A stretch of 46,457 nucleotides of DNA. It comes from Pseudanabaena cinerea FACHB-1277. Lineage in GTDB: Bacteria; Cyanobacteriota; Cyanobacteriia; Pseudanabaenales; Pseudanabaenaceae. The DNA lies in assembly GCF_014696345.1 (NCBI RefSeq), contig NZ_JACJPY010000033.1, positions 1 to 46,457 of the forward strand, given 5' to 3'. Every line of letters starts with the position of its first letter. Position 1 is the first letter of the stretch. Below are positions 166-25,615 of this stretch, piece after piece. The position numbers were made by a program, and so were the translations under genes. Below the pieces are notes generated by a model. It searched no databases and was not told the origin of the DNA. It saw nothing but the letters and a program-made list of their open reading frames with translations.

Positions 166-1059
166 TTAGCCATCAAGTTTAGAAAGAAGATTTTGAAATA
201 TTTCACATTTTTTCTGGAACCATTCAATTGAAAACCCATTTTCTCTTAGCACACACACAGAAGCCATCGTGTAAGAATGCTTACCTTCAAAAATGTCAGT
301 TAACTTTTGACAGCAGTTAATGAGCGTTTTATAGGCTTGTTTTTCTGAATTTTTTGGATTGCCAAGGTCTTTAAAAGCGTTCTGTAATTCTATGATCAGG
401 AGTTGAGTGCTTCTCTGTTGTGTTCTTCTCTCTTGGGCTAATTGATCGCGCTCGTTAAGTTTGAAAATCTTGAGACACATCTCACCTCTAGCACTCCCAT
501 TCAAAGAATACATTACTCCTTGAGAATCTACAGCCAAATGATTTTCTGGGTTGTCCTCATCTAGATTACTGATTGGATTGATTAGTAAGGGTCTTTCATT
601 TACTTCTTCGCCAACTGATTGAGCATAGTTCCCAATTACTGGGAAAATGGTGCTTTTAGGACGATTACATTTTTCGCAAGATGGTAGCAGATTGCGCCAG
701 TCGTAGGCTAACCAATAGTAACCATGATGGGGAATATTAGTTTCAAATCCTTGTGAATCTTTGAGATTTACGACATTGCCATTCTCATCTTTGATACCTG
801 CTTTAGGTCGAAAGTGTTCAATGTCAATGCTTTGAGTATCTGCAATAGGAGTTTCACAATAGGCGCAGCGACCATAAAATGGGGCATCTTTGCTGGCAAA
901 ATAAATTTGCTTAATTTCTTTTCTTTTGTAAAGATTGCTGATAATTGGCTTTTTACCTTCAGCAATAATCTCTATTAACTTTTTTGTTTCTTCTTGACAA
1001 TCTCGAATCCATTTTTCCCAGATTTCACTATCTGGCTCTTGAATGAATATTTTCCTCAC
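166..1059 (-). CDS. HNH endonuclease, TIGR02646/PtuB-like (putative anti-phage effector)
   Basis: The 297-residue protein is a probable metal-dependent DNA nuclease of the HNH family found in Septu (PtuB) and in retron Ec78-type defence systems. Visible hallmarks are CAYCE (Cys65, Cys68), DIEHFRPK (His82) and a second CxxC in LPSCEKCNRPK (Cys128, Cys131). The first pair with the second would bind structural zinc, and His82 is the likely catalytic base. HHGYYWLAYDWRNLLPSC is typical of the family. The start is GTG, preceded by a perfect AGGAGG (1067-1072) that lies in the last codons of the upstream ATPase gene. The stop of that gene is 2 nt away, so the two are almost certainly translated together. 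The family assignment is strong; the defence role is inferred from the family and the partner. Confidence 0.88.
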   Translation of the reverse strand: MRKIFIQEPDSEIWEKWIRDCQEETKKLIEIIAEGKKPIISNLYKRKEIKQIYFASKDAPFYGRCAYCETPIADTQSIDIEHFRPKAGIKDENGNVVNLKDSQGFETNIPHHGYYWLAYDWRNLLPSCEKCNRPKSTIFPVIGNYAQSVGEEVNERPLLINPISNLDEDNPENHLAVDSQGVMYSLNGSARGEMCLKIFKLNERDQLAQERRTQQRSTQLLIIELQNAFKDLGNPKNSEKQAYKTLINCCQKLTDIFEGKHSYTMASVCVLRENGFSIEWFQKKCEIFQNLLSKLDG

Positions 1060-1061
1060 CT

Positions 1062-4000
1062 CTAAACCTCCTGATTAGAAAGCTGTTGAAGATGTCTAGT
1101 TAGTTCGAGTTCTAGAAGTTCGGGCGTAATATCATTCGCTACTTTTTCAATCGCTGATTCTACTTCACTCCTAATTAACCTTTCCGTGGGATTTTCGCCA
1201 TCTTGTAAACCTTCTCTTACTTTGCCGCGTAATTCCTGTAATTCATTTTCTTCATCTTCAGTGCGCCTTGTACGACCAAGGAGTTCAGAGTAGCGATCAA
1301 TATCTGTCATGCTACCTAAATTACGACTGGTAACTAAACCAAAAGCTTCTGAGGTGAGTACTTGATCGGCACGTTTACCATATAGTTCTTCTTTATTGAT
1401 TAGCTTAGCTTGAACACCATTGTCATGGCTACGATCTAGCTTCACTAGAAGACCACTCTCGATATCCACAACTCCTGAAGCAGCTAAAGGGGTATGGGTG
1501 GAGGCAATAATTTGAGTGTTAGGGAACATTTCATGAAGACGTTGCACAAAATGACGCTGCCAGAGAGGATGTAAATGTTGTTCAATTTCATCAATGAGTA
1601 GAATTCCGCCAATATTCCCATTCTCTGTTAGTCGATTGGCATGGACAGCCCAACCAATAAAATCTAGCAACCATTGGCTAGTACTGCGATAACCATCACT
1701 GAGGGCGGCAAGGGGCTGTCTGCCCCAAGGTCCTTCAACTTCGATACCGCGATCGCTGTAATGAAACTGATATTCTGCATGGTCATCAAGCATTAGTACT
1801 TTGAGCAATTGTTGCTCGATTTGCTTGCGAACTTCGTCACTGCGCCGCCGTAAAACTACTTCTGGATCTTGGAAAGAGACTTGGGATGTAAACAAGGATT
1901 GCACAGCATCAAGGGTACGGTAGCCTTCATAATTGTTGTGAGATTGGGTAGTACGATTTGCTCCGTAACCACATACAAAAATATCGGACCACAGAAAATC
2001 AGCTTCTGGCTCAATTTTTTGGGTAAGCGTTTCACTTTTTTCTGATTTTTTGGTAATGGTAGTTGTAATCGTATAAGTGTTTGTTTGGTTATTTCCGTCT
2101 AGATTTTGCAAAGATCGATTATCTGGACTTTGTTGACGGGCGATCGCTATTAACTCATTAAGTTTTTCATCTGTGTTTGCTCGCCCAATCATTTCAACGA
2201 TCTGTTCAGAAAGACTAGTATATGGTGAAGGTTGCCCTAATTCTTCTGGTAAAGCATTTTTGAGGTCTTTAAGTTTAGAGATAGTTGGGAAAGCGCTTAG
2301 TAATGCTCGGTGTAATTGTTGTGATCGCACAAGTGGAATTTGTGATGCATCTTTGTTAGACAAAACAATCTTGATATAGCCTTCATCTGCACCATCTCGT
2401 ACCAAGTCTCCAGACAGAAATGACTTTAAAGCGGCAGCATCACTTTGATCGCACAGTCCGAGAGCAATACTTCTGAGTAAAGTAGTTTTTCCTGCGGCAT
2501 TTTCACCCAAAACCATGAACCAATCGGAGGGTTTATCACCTTCAGTAAAGCTTACTTTCAAACTCTCAAAGCATCGAATATTTTTAAGTTCAACTTCGGA
2601 AATCACCAAGTTTCGCCAAGAATAATCGGTTTGCTTAGTATCTAAACTAGTTATGCTTTGTGAATACTCCTGTGCTATTCTTTCATAAGTTTCTTTAAAT
2701 TTATCTATTTTTGTAACAGCTAGTTGAGGGAAGAACCAAGCTGCATGATCATTAGAGTATCTTAAGAGCATTCCCAAATGCAAAGCTAATAAGCCCAAAT
2801 CACCATCTGGTAGTTTTTTTGTGTAAATAGAGAATACAAGATTTTGGTAAAATGTATCTGATGTATTGTCATCTTTAAAACTTAAGTTAAGGTTTTCAAA
2901 GTGATTTTTTAATTGATCTGTTGCATAACTTACATCGATATCAATAATTTTTTTGCGACCTCTTCCAATAGCTGATAGGCAAGCATGACGAATTAACATC
3001 ATTAAATACGTTAAGTTGCCTCCACTATAAGAGGCTATCTTAGTTACTAACTCATGTGAATCAAATAAAGCATCAACGTCTATTCTTTTTTTTAAGAGTA
3101 AAATTAATTTTAGAATCGATAAATCTTCAATTTTCGGAATAGCTGAAACATCAATAAGTCTATAAACATTTACTAATGCTATAATTAAAAACTTTTGCTT
3201 GTCTAAATTAATTCTGGGGAGAACGTAATCAATAAAAATAGGTGATGTATATATTATATTAAAATCGAAATTTAATAGCTCTCTAACTTCAGTACCAAAT
3301 AATTTTTTCGCCGAATCTATATTGCAGCGATCTAAGTTATCAAAGATAAAAGCAATGCCTTTATAATCTTTTTTGCTTTCTTGAAAGATCTGATTTATGG
3401 ACTTAACCAATAAGCAGATTAATCTTCTAAACTCTCTCTGATATATATCTAAAGCCCCGCGATAAGATGAAACTTGTTCTATCCCTGAAGAATCAAGAGG
3501 ATGCGAATAGAATCTGGCTGTTTCATCTTTAATTTTAAGAATGATGCCAGACAAAAGTACCGAAATATCAGTTGATAAGTTTATGTCTTCATTGGATTTA
3601 TTGTAAATTTTACCTACTGTGTACTTAATCGACAGAATTTTGTCTTCAAGAGATAAGTATCCATAATTGGAATCAAGTTCAAAAGCTTCCTCAATAATTC
3701 TGACAAGTAAAAATCTAAAATCTTCAATAATGTTGGAATCAATTTCTATATTATGTTGACTTATATGTCGAACCAAATACAGTGCAGAGAGTAAATAGAT
3801 ATCAATATAATCAAAGTTATCTATGTTTGATATCTTGTCAGCCTCAATATAAATTACATGATAGTCACTACACCAATTCTTAATCAGCAAATTTAATTGT
3901 GTAGTCTTACCACAACCACGATGCCCAGCTAGAAAAAAAGTCTTATGTTCTCCCAATTCCTGCACAAATAGAGAAGCACCGATCGCTTTTACCGCATCAA

Positions 4001-4124
4001 AATCATCCTCATCTAATAAAGGCACATAATATTTGTCAAAATCCTCCCCACTCAGAGGCTTTGGCTCACATACACGATAAGCCTCGCGCAAATCAGTTGC
4101 AGGTTGTGATGGAGAAGATGACAT
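1062..4124 (-). CDS. Fused double P-loop ATPase, PtuA-like C-terminal half
   Basis: The 1020-residue protein has two nucleotide-binding modules. The N-terminal one (about 1-480) has Walker A GHRGCGKTT (67-75) and a Walker B-like AFIFDNLDR near 255, which resembles KAP/STAND/ORC-type ATPases. The C-terminal one (about 515-930) is SMC/ABC-like: Walker A GENAAGKTT near 538, signature LSDGYRSTS near 825, Walker B GILLIDEIEQHLHP and switch ASTHTPL. After it comes YGKRADQVLTSEAFGL, which recalls the DQxLxSxxFG segment of PtuA-type ATPases. PtuA proteins are usually about half this length, so the N-terminal ATPase is an added module. The DNA for about 2650-3950 looks clearly more AT-rich than the C-terminal half, suggesting separate origins. 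It is the first gene of an operon with the HNH nuclease. It may sense phage or foreign DNA and license the nuclease; that is inference. Confidence 0.87.
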   Translation of the reverse strand: MSSSPSQPATDLREAYRVCEPKPLSGEDFDKYYVPLLDEDDFDAVKAIGASLFVQELGEHKTFFLAGHRGCGKTTQLNLLIKNWCSDYHVIYIEADKISNIDNFDYIDIYLLSALYLVRHISQHNIEIDSNIIEDFRFLLVRIIEEAFELDSNYGYLSLEDKILSIKYTVGKIYNKSNEDINLSTDISVLLSGIILKIKDETARFYSHPLDSSGIEQVSSYRGALDIYQREFRRLICLLVKSINQIFQESKKDYKGIAFIFDNLDRCNIDSAKKLFGTEVRELLNFDFNIIYTSPIFIDYVLPRINLDKQKFLIIALVNVYRLIDVSAIPKIEDLSILKLILLLKKRIDVDALFDSHELVTKIASYSGGNLTYLMMLIRHACLSAIGRGRKKIIDIDVSYATDQLKNHFENLNLSFKDDNTSDTFYQNLVFSIYTKKLPDGDLGLLALHLGMLLRYSNDHAAWFFPQLAVTKIDKFKETYERIAQEYSQSITSLDTKQTDYSWRNLVISEVELKNIRCFESLKVSFTEGDKPSDWFMVLGENAAGKTTLLRSIALGLCDQSDAAALKSFLSGDLVRDGADEGYIKIVLSNKDASQIPLVRSQQLHRALLSAFPTISKLKDLKNALPEELGQPSPYTSLSEQIVEMIGRANTDEKLNELIAIARQQSPDNRSLQNLDGNNQTNTYTITTTITKKSEKSETLTQKIEPEADFLWSDIFVCGYGANRTTQSHNNYEGYRTLDAVQSLFTSQVSFQDPEVVLRRRSDEVRKQIEQQLLKVLMLDDHAEYQFHYSDRGIEVEGPWGRQPLAALSDGYRSTSQWLLDFIGWAVHANRLTENGNIGGILLIDEIEQHLHPLWQRHFVQRLHEMFPNTQIIASTHTPLAASGVVDIESGLLVKLDRSHDNGVQAKLINKEELYGKRADQVLTSEAFGLVTSRNLGSMTDIDRYSELLGRTRRTEDEENELQELRGKVREGLQDGENPTERLIRSEVESAIEKVANDITPELLELELTRHLQQLSNQEV

Positions 4125-4244
4125 AGCTTTACTTGTTAAGATCTAAATTTTGGCGATCGCATTGCATCTATTGTAGAGTTTTTGGCTAACAGTTGCATAG
4201 CCTGAAACTTTGATGAGGTTTATGGTAACATAAAAATATTATGC

Positions 4245-6470
4245 TTATAACGGTTCCTTTTCATTCTGCCAAATTGCTCTCACGATTTTGATTTCATCGT
4301 AGGTATACGCTTCGCGCAGATGGTCAAACAGATTTCGCAAAGAGTCGCCGCCGATCGCTTCTAAGGCTTCATAAATTATGGTTTGGCGATCAGGCGGTAC
4401 AAGGCGATCGATGTTAATCGCATAGCCCGCTTCCACTAGCTGCACCAAATGCGTCCAAATTGTCGCAGGTTTTAAGCCGCGATCGCGGGCGATATCATCG
4501 ACATCCAAACCATGCTCATACATTTCTAAGGTAGCCTGATTAGTGGCTAACTTGGAGGACTTCGGTTTGGAAGTAATTGCTTCCATTTTAGCTTTTGGTG
4601 AATCTCTAAACTCGCCAGGGGATGGCGGTGGATATTGTTGATGATGCTCTAGAATAATACCGATAAAGTCATCGGCATATTGTTCTAATTTCTTTTGTCC
4701 CACACCTGATAGCTTGGCAAAGTCGCGGCGTGTAGTGGGTTGATGCTCTGCCATTTGGTTGAGCGTGGCATTGCTAAAAATCACATAGGGCGGTACTGCT
4801 TGCTCATCGGCAAGATTTTTGCGAAGGAGACGCAATTTTTCAAAGAGAATTTCCACATCAACGGGGCGATCGCCGCGATCTCGACTATCGGCAACCACAG
4901 GCTCAGCATCGCGCTCGATGGGCAGTAACACTTGACGCTGACCACGCATCACTTCCCAACTGCGATCGTTCAATTTCAAAATGGCATAGCCATCGGTGGT
5001 GGGCGTGAGATAGCCCTGATGCACTAGCGATCGCGATAATTGTCGCCATTCATCGAGGCTACGATCCTTGCCAATGCCATAGGTGGAGAGTTGATCGTGA
5101 TGATGTTGTAATACCTTCTCTTTACGCGAACCCCGCAATACATCGATCAGATGTGCCGCGCCAAAACGTTCCTTTGTTCTTGCCACACAGGATAGAAACT
5201 TTTGTGCTTCCACTGTCCAATCTTCCATTGGCTTAGGGGTGAGGCAGTTGTCACAATTGCGGCAATTGTCATGAAAATTTTCGCCAAAATAGCGCAACAG
5301 AATCGCACGGCGACAGGTAATTCCTTCAGCATAATCCACCACTTGGCGCAGTTGCTGATGGGCGATCCGTTGCTCTGCTTCCAAAGGTGCATTGGTGTGG
5401 GGATCAACCTTTTGGGCGATGAGATATTTGATGGTTTCTAAATCTTGATATCCCAAAAAGAGCGTACAACGAGAATCTTCACCATCACGCCCCGCTCGCC
5501 CTGATTCTTGATAGTAACCTTCAATATTTTTGGACAGATCGTAATGGATTACAAAGCGCACATCGGGCTTATTGATGCCCATCCCAAAGGCGATCGTGGC
5601 AACCATCACCTGCACATCATCACGAATCCAGCGTGTTTGATTCTCCTCCCTTTCCCTTGGGGTTAATCCCGCATGGTAGGGAATGGCTTCAATGCCATCG
5701 ATTCTTAATCGCTCCGCAATTTCATCGACCCTCTTGCGACTGAGACAATAGACTATGCCAGCACCCTGAGTTTTTTTAATCTGCTGGTATAGATGGATAT
5801 AGGATTGGTCAGCGCCTTGTTTGGGAATGACTTCGTAATAGAGATTAGCGCGATCGAAACTGGCAACATGAATGTAAGGATCTCGCAGTGCCAATTGTTG
5901 ACTGATATCCTCTCGGACGCGCTCGGTGGCAGTGGCAGTCAAGCCAATCATTGGCACATCAGCGAAGGAATTCCGAATGCGACTCAATTGCCGATATTCT
6001 GGACGAAAATCATGCCCCCATTCCGATACGCAGTGTGCCTCATCGATCGCAAATCCTGCGATGCCCACCTGATTCTTGACAATATTGAGAAATTCTAAAA
6101 ACTGCTCATTAAATAGGCGTTCAGGAGCCACATAGATTAATTTAACTGCACCATTGAGAATTGCCTGCGATCGCTGATTACTTTCTCGCCCCGACAAAGT
6201 ACTATTCAAAAAAGTTGCGCCGATGCCATTCTCTTTGAGCGCCGTCACCTGATCCTGCATCAGCGCGATCAATGGCGATACCACAATGGTTACACCCGTT
6301 TTTAACAATGCTGGCAATTGAAAACAAATGGACTTACCGCCACCCGTGGGCATGATCGCCAGAGTATCACGTCCCCCTAAAAATGCCTCAATAATCTCGC
6401 GCTGTCCTGCCCGAAAGGAATCATAACCAAAATATTGCTTTAGCGCCTGTGTTAAAGAATCAGCAATCAT
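4245..6470 (-). CDS. recQ: ATP-dependent DNA helicase RecQ
   Basis: RecQ is a 3'-to-5' superfamily 2 helicase that unwinds recombination and stalled-fork intermediates. In order the protein shows Walker A MPTGGGKSICFQLPAL, the DEAH box in IDEAHCVSEWGHDFRPEY, GLTATAT, the helicase C domain with SGRAGRDG, the four-Cys zinc site (CRRAILLRYFGE then CRNCDNC), a winged-helix RQC region, an HRDC domain (about 530-600) and a C-terminal helix-turn-helix domain (about 650-740). That C-terminal HTH extension is common in cyanobacterial and firmicute RecQ. GTG at 6473 and ATG at 6470 are adjacent possible starts; neither has a clear Shine-Dalgarno. It lies 42 bp after the Uma2 gene on the same strand. 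The last 54 codons are duplicated at the left edge of the window. Confidence 0.97.
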   Translation of the reverse strand: MIADSLTQALKQYFGYDSFRAGQREIIEAFLGGRDTLAIMPTGGGKSICFQLPALLKTGVTIVVSPLIALMQDQVTALKENGIGATFLNSTLSGRESNQRSQAILNGAVKLIYVAPERLFNEQFLEFLNIVKNQVGIAGFAIDEAHCVSEWGHDFRPEYRQLSRIRNSFADVPMIGLTATATERVREDISQQLALRDPYIHVASFDRANLYYEVIPKQGADQSYIHLYQQIKKTQGAGIVYCLSRKRVDEIAERLRIDGIEAIPYHAGLTPREREENQTRWIRDDVQVMVATIAFGMGINKPDVRFVIHYDLSKNIEGYYQESGRAGRDGEDSRCTLFLGYQDLETIKYLIAQKVDPHTNAPLEAEQRIAHQQLRQVVDYAEGITCRRAILLRYFGENFHDNCRNCDNCLTPKPMEDWTVEAQKFLSCVARTKERFGAAHLIDVLRGSRKEKVLQHHHDQLSTYGIGKDRSLDEWRQLSRSLVHQGYLTPTTDGYAILKLNDRSWEVMRGQRQVLLPIERDAEPVVADSRDRGDRPVDVEILFEKLRLLRKNLADEQAVPPYVIFSNATLNQMAEHQPTTRRDFAKLSGVGQKKLEQYADDFIGIILEHHQQYPPPSPGEFRDSPKAKMEAITSKPKSSKLATNQATLEMYEHGLDVDDIARDRGLKPATIWTHLVQLVEAGYAINIDRLVPPDRQTIIYEALEAIGGDSLRNLFDHLREAYTYDEIKIVRAIWQNEKEPL
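4249..4410 (-). repeat. Direct repeat copy 2: 3' end of intact recQ
   Basis: This is the right-hand copy of the duplicated segment, lying inside the functional recQ gene. Its inner end abuts the promoter side of the island (4125-4248). Its outer end diverges from copy 1 after GGCGATCG, where recQ continues ATGTTAATC and copy 1 continues CTTTTAGCC. The island therefore sits immediately downstream of recQ, and recQ stays intact, as with elements that insert at a gene's 3' end and rebuild it. Confidence 0.92.
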
Positions 6471-6512
6471 CACAAATATTCACTGCCATACTATTTTTGT
6501 TTTGGGTATTCA

Positions 6513-7184
6513 TCACGACTTAGCAAACACTTCTAAAAGCCAGCGAAAAATTGCGGCATCATCCTCTAACCTACTACGCTGTAAAGCGGTTTCAATAATT
6601 GCCAAGTCTAAGCCAGCAAGCACCTGTGATTGCCTGATTCTGCCGCTATGTCCATTGGCGATCGCAAAGGCAAATATTTCAGAAGTACGCGCATTAACCA
6701 CCCAATATTCAGGGATACCGATTTTTTCGTAAAGCAATCTTTTATAACCAAGGTCATCTTGAATGGATGTTGCCGCAATTTCAATTACTAAGGTGGGCAG
6801 ATCGAACTGATCGAGATCCACAGCAGTATCATTGCGTGGTGGTAATTTCCCATGAGAACCAATGTAAAAGCTAAGGTCAGGCTGGAATTCGGCAATACCT
6901 TCTTTTCGATAACTACAGTTAGAATATTCGTAAATAGGAATGCGACTCAGCCCCGTCATTACGCCAATCGACTTCGAGACGATCGCATCCTCATGGGCAT
7001 GGCTTGGACTAATGGGAGTCATTTCTATCCTCATTAAATCATGGTCAAAATAGAACTTAGCATCGGCAAAATTTGGATCTTCGGTAAGTTCCCTAAATTC
7101 TAGCCAAGAGACTTTTACCCAAGTATCAGTTTGCGCGTTGGTGGGGATTGTTTTTGGCGTTTGATTGACGATAGTACTGGTCAT
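6513..7184 (-). CDS. Uma2 family endonuclease (DUF820, PD-(D/E)XK fold)
   Basis: The 223-residue protein belongs to the large Uma2/DUF820 group, greatly expanded in cyanobacteria and predicted to have a restriction-endonuclease fold. Seen here are the family blocks ending in FQPDLSFYIG, LPTLVIEIAA and YEKIGIPEYWVVN, which contain the presumed catalytic Asp and the E-x-A motif. In many members a Lys follows at the last catalytic position; here the motif reads EIAATS, so activity is uncertain. The substrate of the family is unknown, and many copies move with repeats. It is co-directional with recQ and close enough to share its transcript. Confidence 0.85.
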   Translation of the reverse strand: MTSTIVNQTPKTIPTNAQTDTWVKVSWLEFRELTEDPNFADAKFYFDHDLMRIEMTPISPSHAHEDAIVSKSIGVMTGLSRIPIYEYSNCSYRKEGIAEFQPDLSFYIGSHGKLPPRNDTAVDLDQFDLPTLVIEIAATSIQDDLGYKRLLYEKIGIPEYWVVNARTSEIFAFAIANGHSGRIRQSQVLAGLDLAIIETALQRSRLEDDAAIFRWLLEVFAKS

Positions 7185-7372
7185 GTCTTCTAGATCTGGC
7201 TGGATCTTGCAGGTGATCTATATTTACTAGGAATTGTCAATTTCGTAATTATACGCTCAAGGAATATTTACTCATTAGGATCTTAGCGTATTGTCTTGCC
7301 ATAATTTAGAATTATGACAGTCGGCAATAGTCACCTCCAGTCCCAGTCTACCAAAGGAAATTTGCAAGAATC

Positions 7373-7702
7373 ATGAAAATCAAAACAATCTTAATTGGCG
7401 TTGCCATTCTTGCTGTCGTGATGGCGGTGAGTAATCCTAACAAAGAGCGTTACATTGAATATACCGTTGATCGATTTTCGGAAACTGGTAGATCTTCACT
7501 CTGTACGGGCGTGGGTGATGCTCAGCAACAATGTAAATTTGCGGTGGCGCTATTAGCATCACAGGGCAAACCCTTAATCCGCGCCTTTCTCGAAAATAGT
7601 ACTCGCCAACAAAATTTCTTACTATTCAGTATCTATACCACCGAATTACCCAATCAAAAATTAACAGCGATCGCTGCCTTTGGCAATTTCCTTAGCAATT
7701 AA
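7373..7702 (+). CDS. DUF4359 domain-containing protein, secreted or membrane-anchored
   Basis: This 109-residue protein has an N-terminal hydrophobic segment (residues about 3-20, ILIGVAILAVVMAVSNP) that serves as a signal anchor, then a small domain with two Cys (SSLCTG and QQCKFA) that could form a disulfide outside the membrane. The layout NPxxExYxEY after the membrane segment fits DUF4359, a family mostly from cyanobacteria with no known function. A possible 20-codon ORF (7314-7376) overlaps the start by ATGA; it may be chance. Confidence 0.75.
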   Translation: MKIKTILIGVAILAVVMAVSNPNKERYIEYTVDRFSETGRSSLCTGVGDAQQQCKFAVALLASQGKPLIRAFLENSTRQQNFLLFSIYTTELPNQKLTAIAAFGNFLSN

Positions 7703-7731
7703 TCATCTGTTCCTTTACCACCCAAGAAGAA

Positions 7732-8562
7732 TTAGGAATTGTCACTATTCTGTAGGGCTTTGACCCGATCGCTCAATGCCACCCATTGAGCAACACTCAG
7801 ATCTTCGGCACGGACTTGAGGGTTAATCGCCATCGATTCCAGAATCGCAACTAGGCGATCGCGATCAATCACCGTCATTAAATTATTGCGTAACATCTTC
7901 CGCTTTGTGGCAAAGCCTAGAGTCAGCAACCGATCTAAGAATTTAGGATCACTGGCGACAGTTATGGGGGGGCGCGGCACAAGGCACACGATCGCCGAAT
8001 TAACCTTGGGTGGTGGATAGAAAGCAGAGGCAGGGACATCACAAATAAAATGGCAATCAGCGAGATATTGCATCCTCACACTGAGGGAGTTATATGCCTT
8101 GTGGCTAGGCTTTGCGGCTAGGCGATCGCCGATCTCTTTCTGCACCAACAGCACAATCCGCCCAAATTGTGACACAGGCTCCGCTAAGGTTCCCAATAGT
8201 TTTTTAAGGATCTCACCCGTAATATTGTAAGGAATATTGGCAATTACCTTATTCGTGGCTTCAGGTAGAGGCAGATCAAGAATGCTGCCTTCAATTAAAT
8301 GGAAGTGAGGATATTTCGTGACAGGCATCGTCACCCGTAACTTGGCACAGAGATCGCGATCAATTTCCACCGCCGTGAGCGACTCCACCAATGGCAATAG
8401 CAAGCGGGTGAGGTTGCCCGTACCAGGACCTATTTCTAAAATGCGATCGCCCTGTTGCAAATGCCCCGCCGCCACAATTTTATTGAGTACCGCCTCACTT
8501 TTGAGCCAATGCTGTCCAAACTGTTTGCGAGGACGGATTTTAAGAGATTCTGATTTGAACAT
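7732..8562 (-). CDS. rsmA: 16S rRNA (adenine1518-N6/adenine1519-N6)-dimethyltransferase
   Basis: RsmA (KsgA) dimethylates two adjacent adenines in helix 45 of 16S rRNA using S-adenosylmethionine, a late step of 30S assembly. The family start RPRKQFGQHWL, the SAM-binding loop EIGPGTGNLT (about 44-53), an acidic loop VEIDRD and the catalytic NIPYNIT motif (about 110-116) are all present. At 276 residues it has the normal length. ATG at 8562 is followed at once by the conserved N-terminus. It is convergent with the DUF4359 gene and divergent from the GNAT gene. Confidence 0.97.
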   Translation of the reverse strand: MFKSESLKIRPRKQFGQHWLKSEAVLNKIVAAGHLQQGDRILEIGPGTGNLTRLLLPLVESLTAVEIDRDLCAKLRVTMPVTKYPHFHLIEGSILDLPLPEATNKVIANIPYNITGEILKKLLGTLAEPVSQFGRIVLLVQKEIGDRLAAKPSHKAYNSLSVRMQYLADCHFICDVPASAFYPPPKVNSAIVCLVPRPPITVASDPKFLDRLLTLGFATKRKMLRNNLMTVIDRDRLVAILESMAINPQVRAEDLSVAQWVALSDRVKALQNSDNS

Positions 8563-25383: not shown

Positions 25384-25615
25384 AAGAAGTTGTTTTAAAA
25401 GGTTTGATCCCCCCCAGCCCCCCTTTACAAGGGGGGAGAATCTTCTTCTTCCCCCTTTACAAGGGGGGAGAATCTTCTTCTTCCCCCTTTACAAGGGGGA
25501 TTGAGGGGGATCTTTAGTAACTCTCGATATATCTGATAACTTATGTGTACACGGTACTTGTAAAGGGGGGAGAATCTTCTTCTTCCCCCTTTACAAGGGG
25601 GATTGAGGGGGATCT
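25384..25615. repeat. Array of C/G-run palindromes in the mntC-mntA gap
   Basis: A 32-bp unit starting CCCCCTTTACAAGGGGGG and ending AGAATCTTCTTCTT occurs in full at 25419-25450 and 25451-25482. A third unit is cut short at 25483-25499 and followed by ATTGAGGGGGATC. A second, partial copy of the block is at about 25557-25611. Each CCCCCTT/AAGGGGG is a hairpin with a 3-nt loop. The left flank GTTGTTTTAAAAGG resembles the TIR of the MITE at 10201. It fills most of the 288 bp between mntC and mntA; I see no gene in it. Confidence 0.9.

Follow-up and report, generated by a model that had tools for sequence, protein, structure and literature searches.

A PtuA-PtuB cassette of Pseudanabaena in which a KAP/STAND-type ATPase is fused to an EAD1-containing PtuA

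The window analyzed here (46,457 nucleotides, positions 1 to 46,457 of contig NZ_JACJPY010000033.1 of Pseudanabaena cinerea FACHB-1277) carries a two-gene cassette on its minus strand, in which a Septu-type PtuA is joined in one reading frame to a KAP/STAND-type ATPase and holds an EAD1 (effector-associated domain 1) inside its core. The fusion gene (1062 to 4124) is followed, 2 bp downstream, by ptuB (166 to 1059). The fusion is well supported as a Septu variant so far undescribed in the literature searched, assembled from an effector pair and a regulator family that are both already known; with an effector pair of the ordinary Septu type and a regulator drawn from an existing, unnamed ATPase family, the system does not count as new in kind. 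A literature search on PtuA fusions, on EADs with Septu, and on hypervariable sensors returned no description of this architecture. Judging from sequence, we think it probable that the cassette is a mobile Septu-type PtuA-PtuB defense unit whose own fused ATPase would serve as an infection-responsive switch controlling the nuclease.

The fused gene and its partner nuclease

The original prediction had placed a 1,020-residue open reading frame at 1062 to 4124 and those coordinates proved exact; the strand, absent from that prediction, is minus. Both P-loop ATPases of the fusion are intact, with a Walker A and a Walker B in each half. The first Walker A lies precisely where it had been predicted (aa 67 to 75), and the second, which had been put at about residue 538, spans aa 540 to 548.

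1062 to 4124, minus strand: fusion gene, 1,020 aa, KAP/STAND-type ATPase (aa 1 to ~500) plus PtuA with EAD1 insert (aa 505 to 1020)
3840 to 4124, minus strand: aa 1 to 95, conserved ATPase start including Walker A; GC 0.40, 91% DNA identity to the Phormidium tenue FACHB-1050 copy
3900 to 3926, minus strand: first Walker A, GHRGCGKTT, aa 67 to 75
2613 to 3839, minus strand: aa 96 to 504, variable AT-rich segment; GC ~0.30, 57 to 62% DNA identity to the P. tenue copy
3327 to 3350, minus strand: first Walker B, FIFDNLDR, aa 259 to 266
1062 to 2612, minus strand: PtuA part, ABC/SMC-type ATPase (Septu), aa 505 to 1020
2481 to 2507, minus strand: second Walker A, GENAAGKTT, aa 540 to 548
2100 to 2321, minus strand: EAD1, aa 602 to 675, between the two lobes of PtuA
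1683 to 1703, minus strand: PtuA signature, LSDGYRS, aa 808 to 814
1584 to 1604, minus strand: second Walker B, ILLIDEI, aa 841 to 847 (LLIDEIE from aa 842)
166 to 1059, minus strand: ptuB, HNH nuclease of 297 aa with a GTG start, lying 2 bp downstream of the fusion gene
655 to 867, minus strand: HNH/zinc motif region of PtuB, with C65, C68, E81, H82, N123, C128, C131, N132, and K135 all kept

A KAP/STAND-like ATPase fused to PtuA is what had been predicted, and the separate domain searches of the two halves that had been proposed bear this out. Alone, the N-terminal half scores 21.9 bits against Pfam KAP_NTPase (cutoff, 20); when the whole fusion is scanned, the same model gives 17.7 bits, below the cutoff of 20. 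The C-terminal half is PtuA1 by PADLOC (best profile, 236 bits; E = 1.9e-70), and its best sequence match in the PDB is the Septu PtuA 8ee4 (E = 1.1e-17), with retron PtuA proteins next. Compared with 15 cyanobacterial PtuA proteins, its set of Walker A, signature, Walker B, and His switch (aa 875 to 877) is complete. Ordinary cyanobacterial PtuA proteins measure ~420 to 540 aa, about half the length of the fusion, as had been claimed. The HNH protein is PtuB1 by PADLOC (E = 1e-39), and its zinc/HNH residues are conserved across the 20 other cyanobacterial PtuB proteins compared; no solved structure matched PtuB when searched by sequence. A structure prediction for the whole fusion, made from two sequences, had a mean pLDDT of 31.5 and was unusable.

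Only three of the cyanobacterial genomes searched carry the fusion, all in one genus: that of the window, that of P. tenue FACHB-1050 (G025), and a third (G028). This rarity agrees with the earlier view that the fusion is not a standard Septu architecture. The P. tenue gene has the same frame of ~1,010 aa and, because that species was sequenced independently, a sequencing error cannot account for the fusion; an assembly error or misread fusion is likewise ruled out by the identical frame in a second species. The G028 copy is split over two contigs, whose pieces we take from their similarity to represent one gene, and its PtuA part (contig C72, locus positions 1 to 883) is interrupted by an in-frame stop near aa 758; this copy is either decayed or an assembly error. 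None of the other cyanobacterial PtuA matches has a comparably long reading frame, and a wider contig scan gave a single match, on the same P. tenue FACHB-1050 contig. The viral contigs searched contained neither the fusion nor the family of its N-terminal half, and the plasmids and phages searched gave only partial matches, none covering 80%.

Among known systems, the nearest is Septu itself, represented by the solved PtuA 8ee4 and by E. coli Septu, with which the cassette shares the two-gene form and a PtuA with all motifs followed by an HNH ptuB gene. It differs in that its PtuA is twice the usual length, with a KAP/STAND-type ATPase at the start and EAD1 in the core. Single-chain HNH-PtuA Septu (PADLOC profiles of 726 to 773 aa, which match both proteins) is also a fused form; there PtuB appears to be fused to PtuA, whereas in the present cassette PtuB has its own gene and PtuA is joined to a second ATPase. 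The third comparison is with retron type I-A (Ec78/Eco7, Ec83/Eco4), whose effector pair is homologous to both cassette proteins; both also match the PADLOC retron I-A ATPase and HNH profiles, as would be expected if this PtuA-PtuB effector were held by a reverse transcriptase and msDNA. However, no reverse-transcriptase motif occurs in the open reading frames of the window, no Rfam match rises above threshold around the cassette, no reverse-transcriptase candidate lies beside the P. tenue cassette, and the DNA common to the two cassettes extends only from the leader to the end of ptuB. We therefore rejected a type I-A retron as extremely improbable: the cassette has no reverse transcriptase or msr-msd and carries a fused ATPase as its regulator instead.

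Origin of the N-terminal ATPase

The source of the N-terminal half is a family of cyanobacterial ATPases that are normally encoded by a gene of their own, in ATPase-TPR operons. Family members occur in 198 of the 390 cyanobacterial genomes searched (class level); among the matches listed, most are frames of ~450 aa and none but the fusions is longer than 1,000 aa. The N-terminal half is homologous to the standalone ATPases from end to end, at no more than 34% identity overall, and has the Walker A, DNLDR, and SGG motifs in common with them. KAP_NTPase matched all 13 relatives scanned, with one standalone member at 28.4 bits. On the N-terminal half, the Pfam STAND and ORC/Cdc6-like models scored under their cutoffs (nSTAND3, 22.0 bits against 27.2), and a sequence search of solved structures returned nothing of interest beyond Walker A. 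KAP NTPases typically have transmembrane helices inserted in the P-loop domain; the hydropathy profile of the N-terminal half contains no convincing transmembrane stretch (19-residue maximum, 1.75 at aa 312 to 330).

In all 20 class-level loci examined, and in nearly every genus-level locus, the gene directly after the standalone ATPase encodes a TPR protein, usually with a gene overlap of 4 to 58 bp. The TPR partners share an N-terminal domain of ~200 aa, and those that were scanned have TPR repeats; the ATPase of the unit has no strong PADLOC or NCBIfam name. The fused version departs from this arrangement: it is joined to PtuA, no TPR partner gene directly follows it, and its aa 96 to 500 are variable and AT rich. 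The window's own genome has no close copy of the TPR partner, only distant partner-like domains at ~30% identity. The N-terminal half thus came from a two-gene ATPase-TPR system, with PtuA now in place of the TPR partner. In a tree, the three fused N-terminal halves group as one clade within the standalone ATPases, and the stem leading to it measures 2.6 changes per site; this topology agrees with one fusion event and rapid change thereafter.

Because a family member is fused to a defense effector, ATPase-TPR pairs may themselves act in defense or cell-death signaling, which would be the first functional lead for this large cyanobacterial family. In a distant branch of the family, the next gene encodes a STAND-WD40 protein instead of the TPR partner. 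The window's own genome includes such a distant-branch ATPase (contig C123, locus positions 2101 to 8472), directly before a 1,638-aa protein with a P loop and WD40 repeats in an NLR-like pair.

The EAD1 insert and a proposed switch

Pfam EAD1 scores 28.9 bits on the fusion (cutoff, 24.2) and 33.4 bits in the genome search; the EAD1 of the P. tenue fusion, at 29.9 bits, is also above the Pfam cutoff. Aligned with 18 other cyanobacterial PtuA-type proteins, which have a short stretch at this place, EAD1 is an insert. EAD1 has been proposed to be a coupling adaptor found on effectors and core components of conflict systems (PMC7159879). As in EAD1-linked conflict systems (vWA-MoxR/VMAP, GAP1), the adaptor here sits on a putative effector, but it is embedded in the effector ATPase instead of being terminal, and a cognate EAD1 was not found in this genome. 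Neither the EAD1 insert nor the mosaic conservation described below featured in the original prediction.

By way of the insert, a vWA-MoxR (VMAP) conflict platform might recruit the PtuA-PtuB nuclease as its effector. In P. tenue, a VMAP-C protein and a trypsin protein each carry EAD1 and lie beside a MoxR-like AAA ATPase, and EAD1 has been proposed to bring effectors to such platforms (PMC7159879). The window's own genome likewise encodes a VMAP-C protein with a trypsin-like start beside a MoxR-like ATPase (contig C118, locus positions 445 to 3264), but this unit is a vWA-MoxR-type conflict system without EAD1, and a profile search of the genome (99.99% complete; E <= 0.01) returned no EAD1 besides that of the fusion. 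Recruitment of this kind is therefore unlikely. Because no second EAD1 was found, self-association appears to be the likelier, and the simplest, role of EAD1 in this genome.

The switch that we favor leans on analogy with STAND proteins that have TPR sensors, in which contacts between sensor and ATPase hold the protein off until a trigger leads to opening and multimerization (PMC6468293). In a resting cell, the N-terminal KAP/STAND-type ATPase would keep PtuA-PtuB inactive. A signal of infection, read via the variable aa 96 to 500, would switch the nucleotide state of this ATPase, and the PtuA oligomer would then assemble, with EAD1 either helping PtuA to oligomerize or attaching it to an EAD1-bearing platform. 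The HNH protein bound to PtuA would cut one of the nucleic acids attacked by known PtuAB systems, phage DNA or host tRNA, and so halt phage production, probably at the cell's expense. Both targets have precedents: tRNA-Tyr is cut by the PtuAB of retron Eco7 and by one E. coli Septu, and phage DNA is cut by another Septu (PMC11555353, PMC13096335). Anti-phage activity of E. coli Septu needs both the ATPase and the nuclease (PMC13096335).

Clearly less likely than such a switch is an N-terminal ATPase that is no sensor but acts as an oligomerization or assembly hub concentrating PtuA-PtuB, with the trigger read by PtuA or another protein. Ordinary PtuA works without an extra ATPase, the proposed coupling function of EAD1 (PMC7159879) would suit a hub, and PtuA alone forms a trimer of dimers, as quoted in PMC11980606. 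However, a pure scaffold is expected to be conserved, and aa 96 to 500 are instead the most variable part of a cassette whose PtuA is ~90% identical between species. To our knowledge, the trigger of retron-free Septu is not settled. If our switch reading holds, the fusion found here, which joins PtuA to a switch-type ATPase in nature, indicates where an answer may lie.

Mosaic conservation and mobility

Conservation between the window and P. tenue copies changes sharply along the cassette. DNA identity is 0.91 over aa 1 to 95, falls to 0.57 over aa 96 to 250 and 0.62 over aa 251 to 500, and then returns to 0.88 (aa 505 to 600), 0.92 (EAD1), and 0.86 to 0.91 (aa 691 to 935) before declining to 0.74 over aa 936 to 1020 and 0.66 to 0.77 in ptuB. 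The contrasts between conserved and variable blocks have Fisher p values of about 1e-26 and 1e-70 (from rounded counts). Synonymous divergence follows the same pattern, with dS of ~0.4 in aa 1 to 95, 1.0 to 2.6 in aa 96 to 500, and 0.23 to 0.59 in aa 505 to 935. Because synonymous divergence itself jumps, aa 96 to 500 seem to have a history different from that of their flanks and not merely a faster protein clock. The segment is still under constraint, because omega there is 0.18 to 0.44; codon positions 1 and 2 are more conserved than position 3. Uniform fast evolution of the whole N-terminal half is ruled out by its first 95 codons, which are 91% identical in DNA.

Base composition changes at the same boundary, with a GC content of ~0.30 in aa 96 to 505 versus 0.45 in the flanks. 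The original prediction had described the DNA of the N-terminal half as more AT rich and had read this as a sign of the join. The description applies to aa 96 to 505 and fails for the first 95 codons (GC 0.40). The reading as a join mark was discarded: AT richness starts after codon 95, inside the N-terminal half, and is common to all three fusions and not to the standalone ATPases. The standalone relatives have no identity step at codon 95 and no comparable drop into AT-rich DNA. In all three fused copies the GC content of the variable segment (2613 to 3839) is 0.28 to 0.31, though synonymous sites are saturated among them.

AT-rich composition and the very long stem in the tree might also mark the N-terminal half as a decaying remnant, left by a chance fusion in a mobile cassette and drifting toward AT under relaxed constraint. 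We consider this very unlikely: the frame stays open over 500 codons in two species, omega is about 0.2 to 0.4 with the first two codon positions better conserved than the third, the Walker A, Walker B (DNLDR), and SGGN motifs are intact in all three copies, and the proteins of the two species are 96% identical over aa 1 to 95.

The variation in aa 96 to 500 fits recognition; alternatively, it could reflect long separate descent with compositional bias. If the segment does recognize a signal, recombination would swap it between alleles. More tentatively, the fusion may possess an exchangeable sensor, with aa 96 to 500 swapped between conserved anchors and a homotypic EAD1, and would then be a single-chain, NLR-like receptor driving PtuA-PtuB. 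The sharp boundary between conserved and variable parts would in that case be a natural trace of recognition parts being exchanged in a bacterial immune receptor. The window matches the G028 copy (0.84 to 0.89) better than that of P. tenue from aa 936 to the end of ptuB, whereas over aa 736 to 935 it is closer to P. tenue (0.91) than to G028 (0.80). These identities mark a second exchange point and hint that the PtuA tail and PtuB travel together, perhaps because the two touch.

The limits and surroundings of the cassette bear on its mobility.

4125 to 4230, minus strand: leader, 82% identical over 101 bp to the P. tenue copy; the common cassette begins here
4249 to 4416, no strand assigned: direct repeat, right copy, within recQ (4245 to 6473)
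1 to 168, no strand assigned: direct repeat, left copy, 168 bp, equal to the recQ 3' end; the contig ends inside it

DNA common to the window and P. tenue cassettes extends from ~106 bp before the start of the fusion gene to just past the end of ptuB, and the genomic site differs between the two. The housekeeping gene recQ is ~74% identical in DNA between the same two genomes; the conserved blocks of the cassette are more alike than the genomes are (~90% versus 74%), which indicates that the cassette moves. In the window, it lies directly after recQ and is flanked by a 168-bp repeat of the recQ 3' end, the copies of which are 98% identical, as if the cassette had entered the end of recQ with the gene restored; the contig ends inside the left copy. 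In P. tenue and two further genomes (G018 and G027), no cassette lies beside recQ. Elsewhere in the window, self-comparison also revealed short exact direct repeats of 39 and 53 bp at 25429 to 25615.
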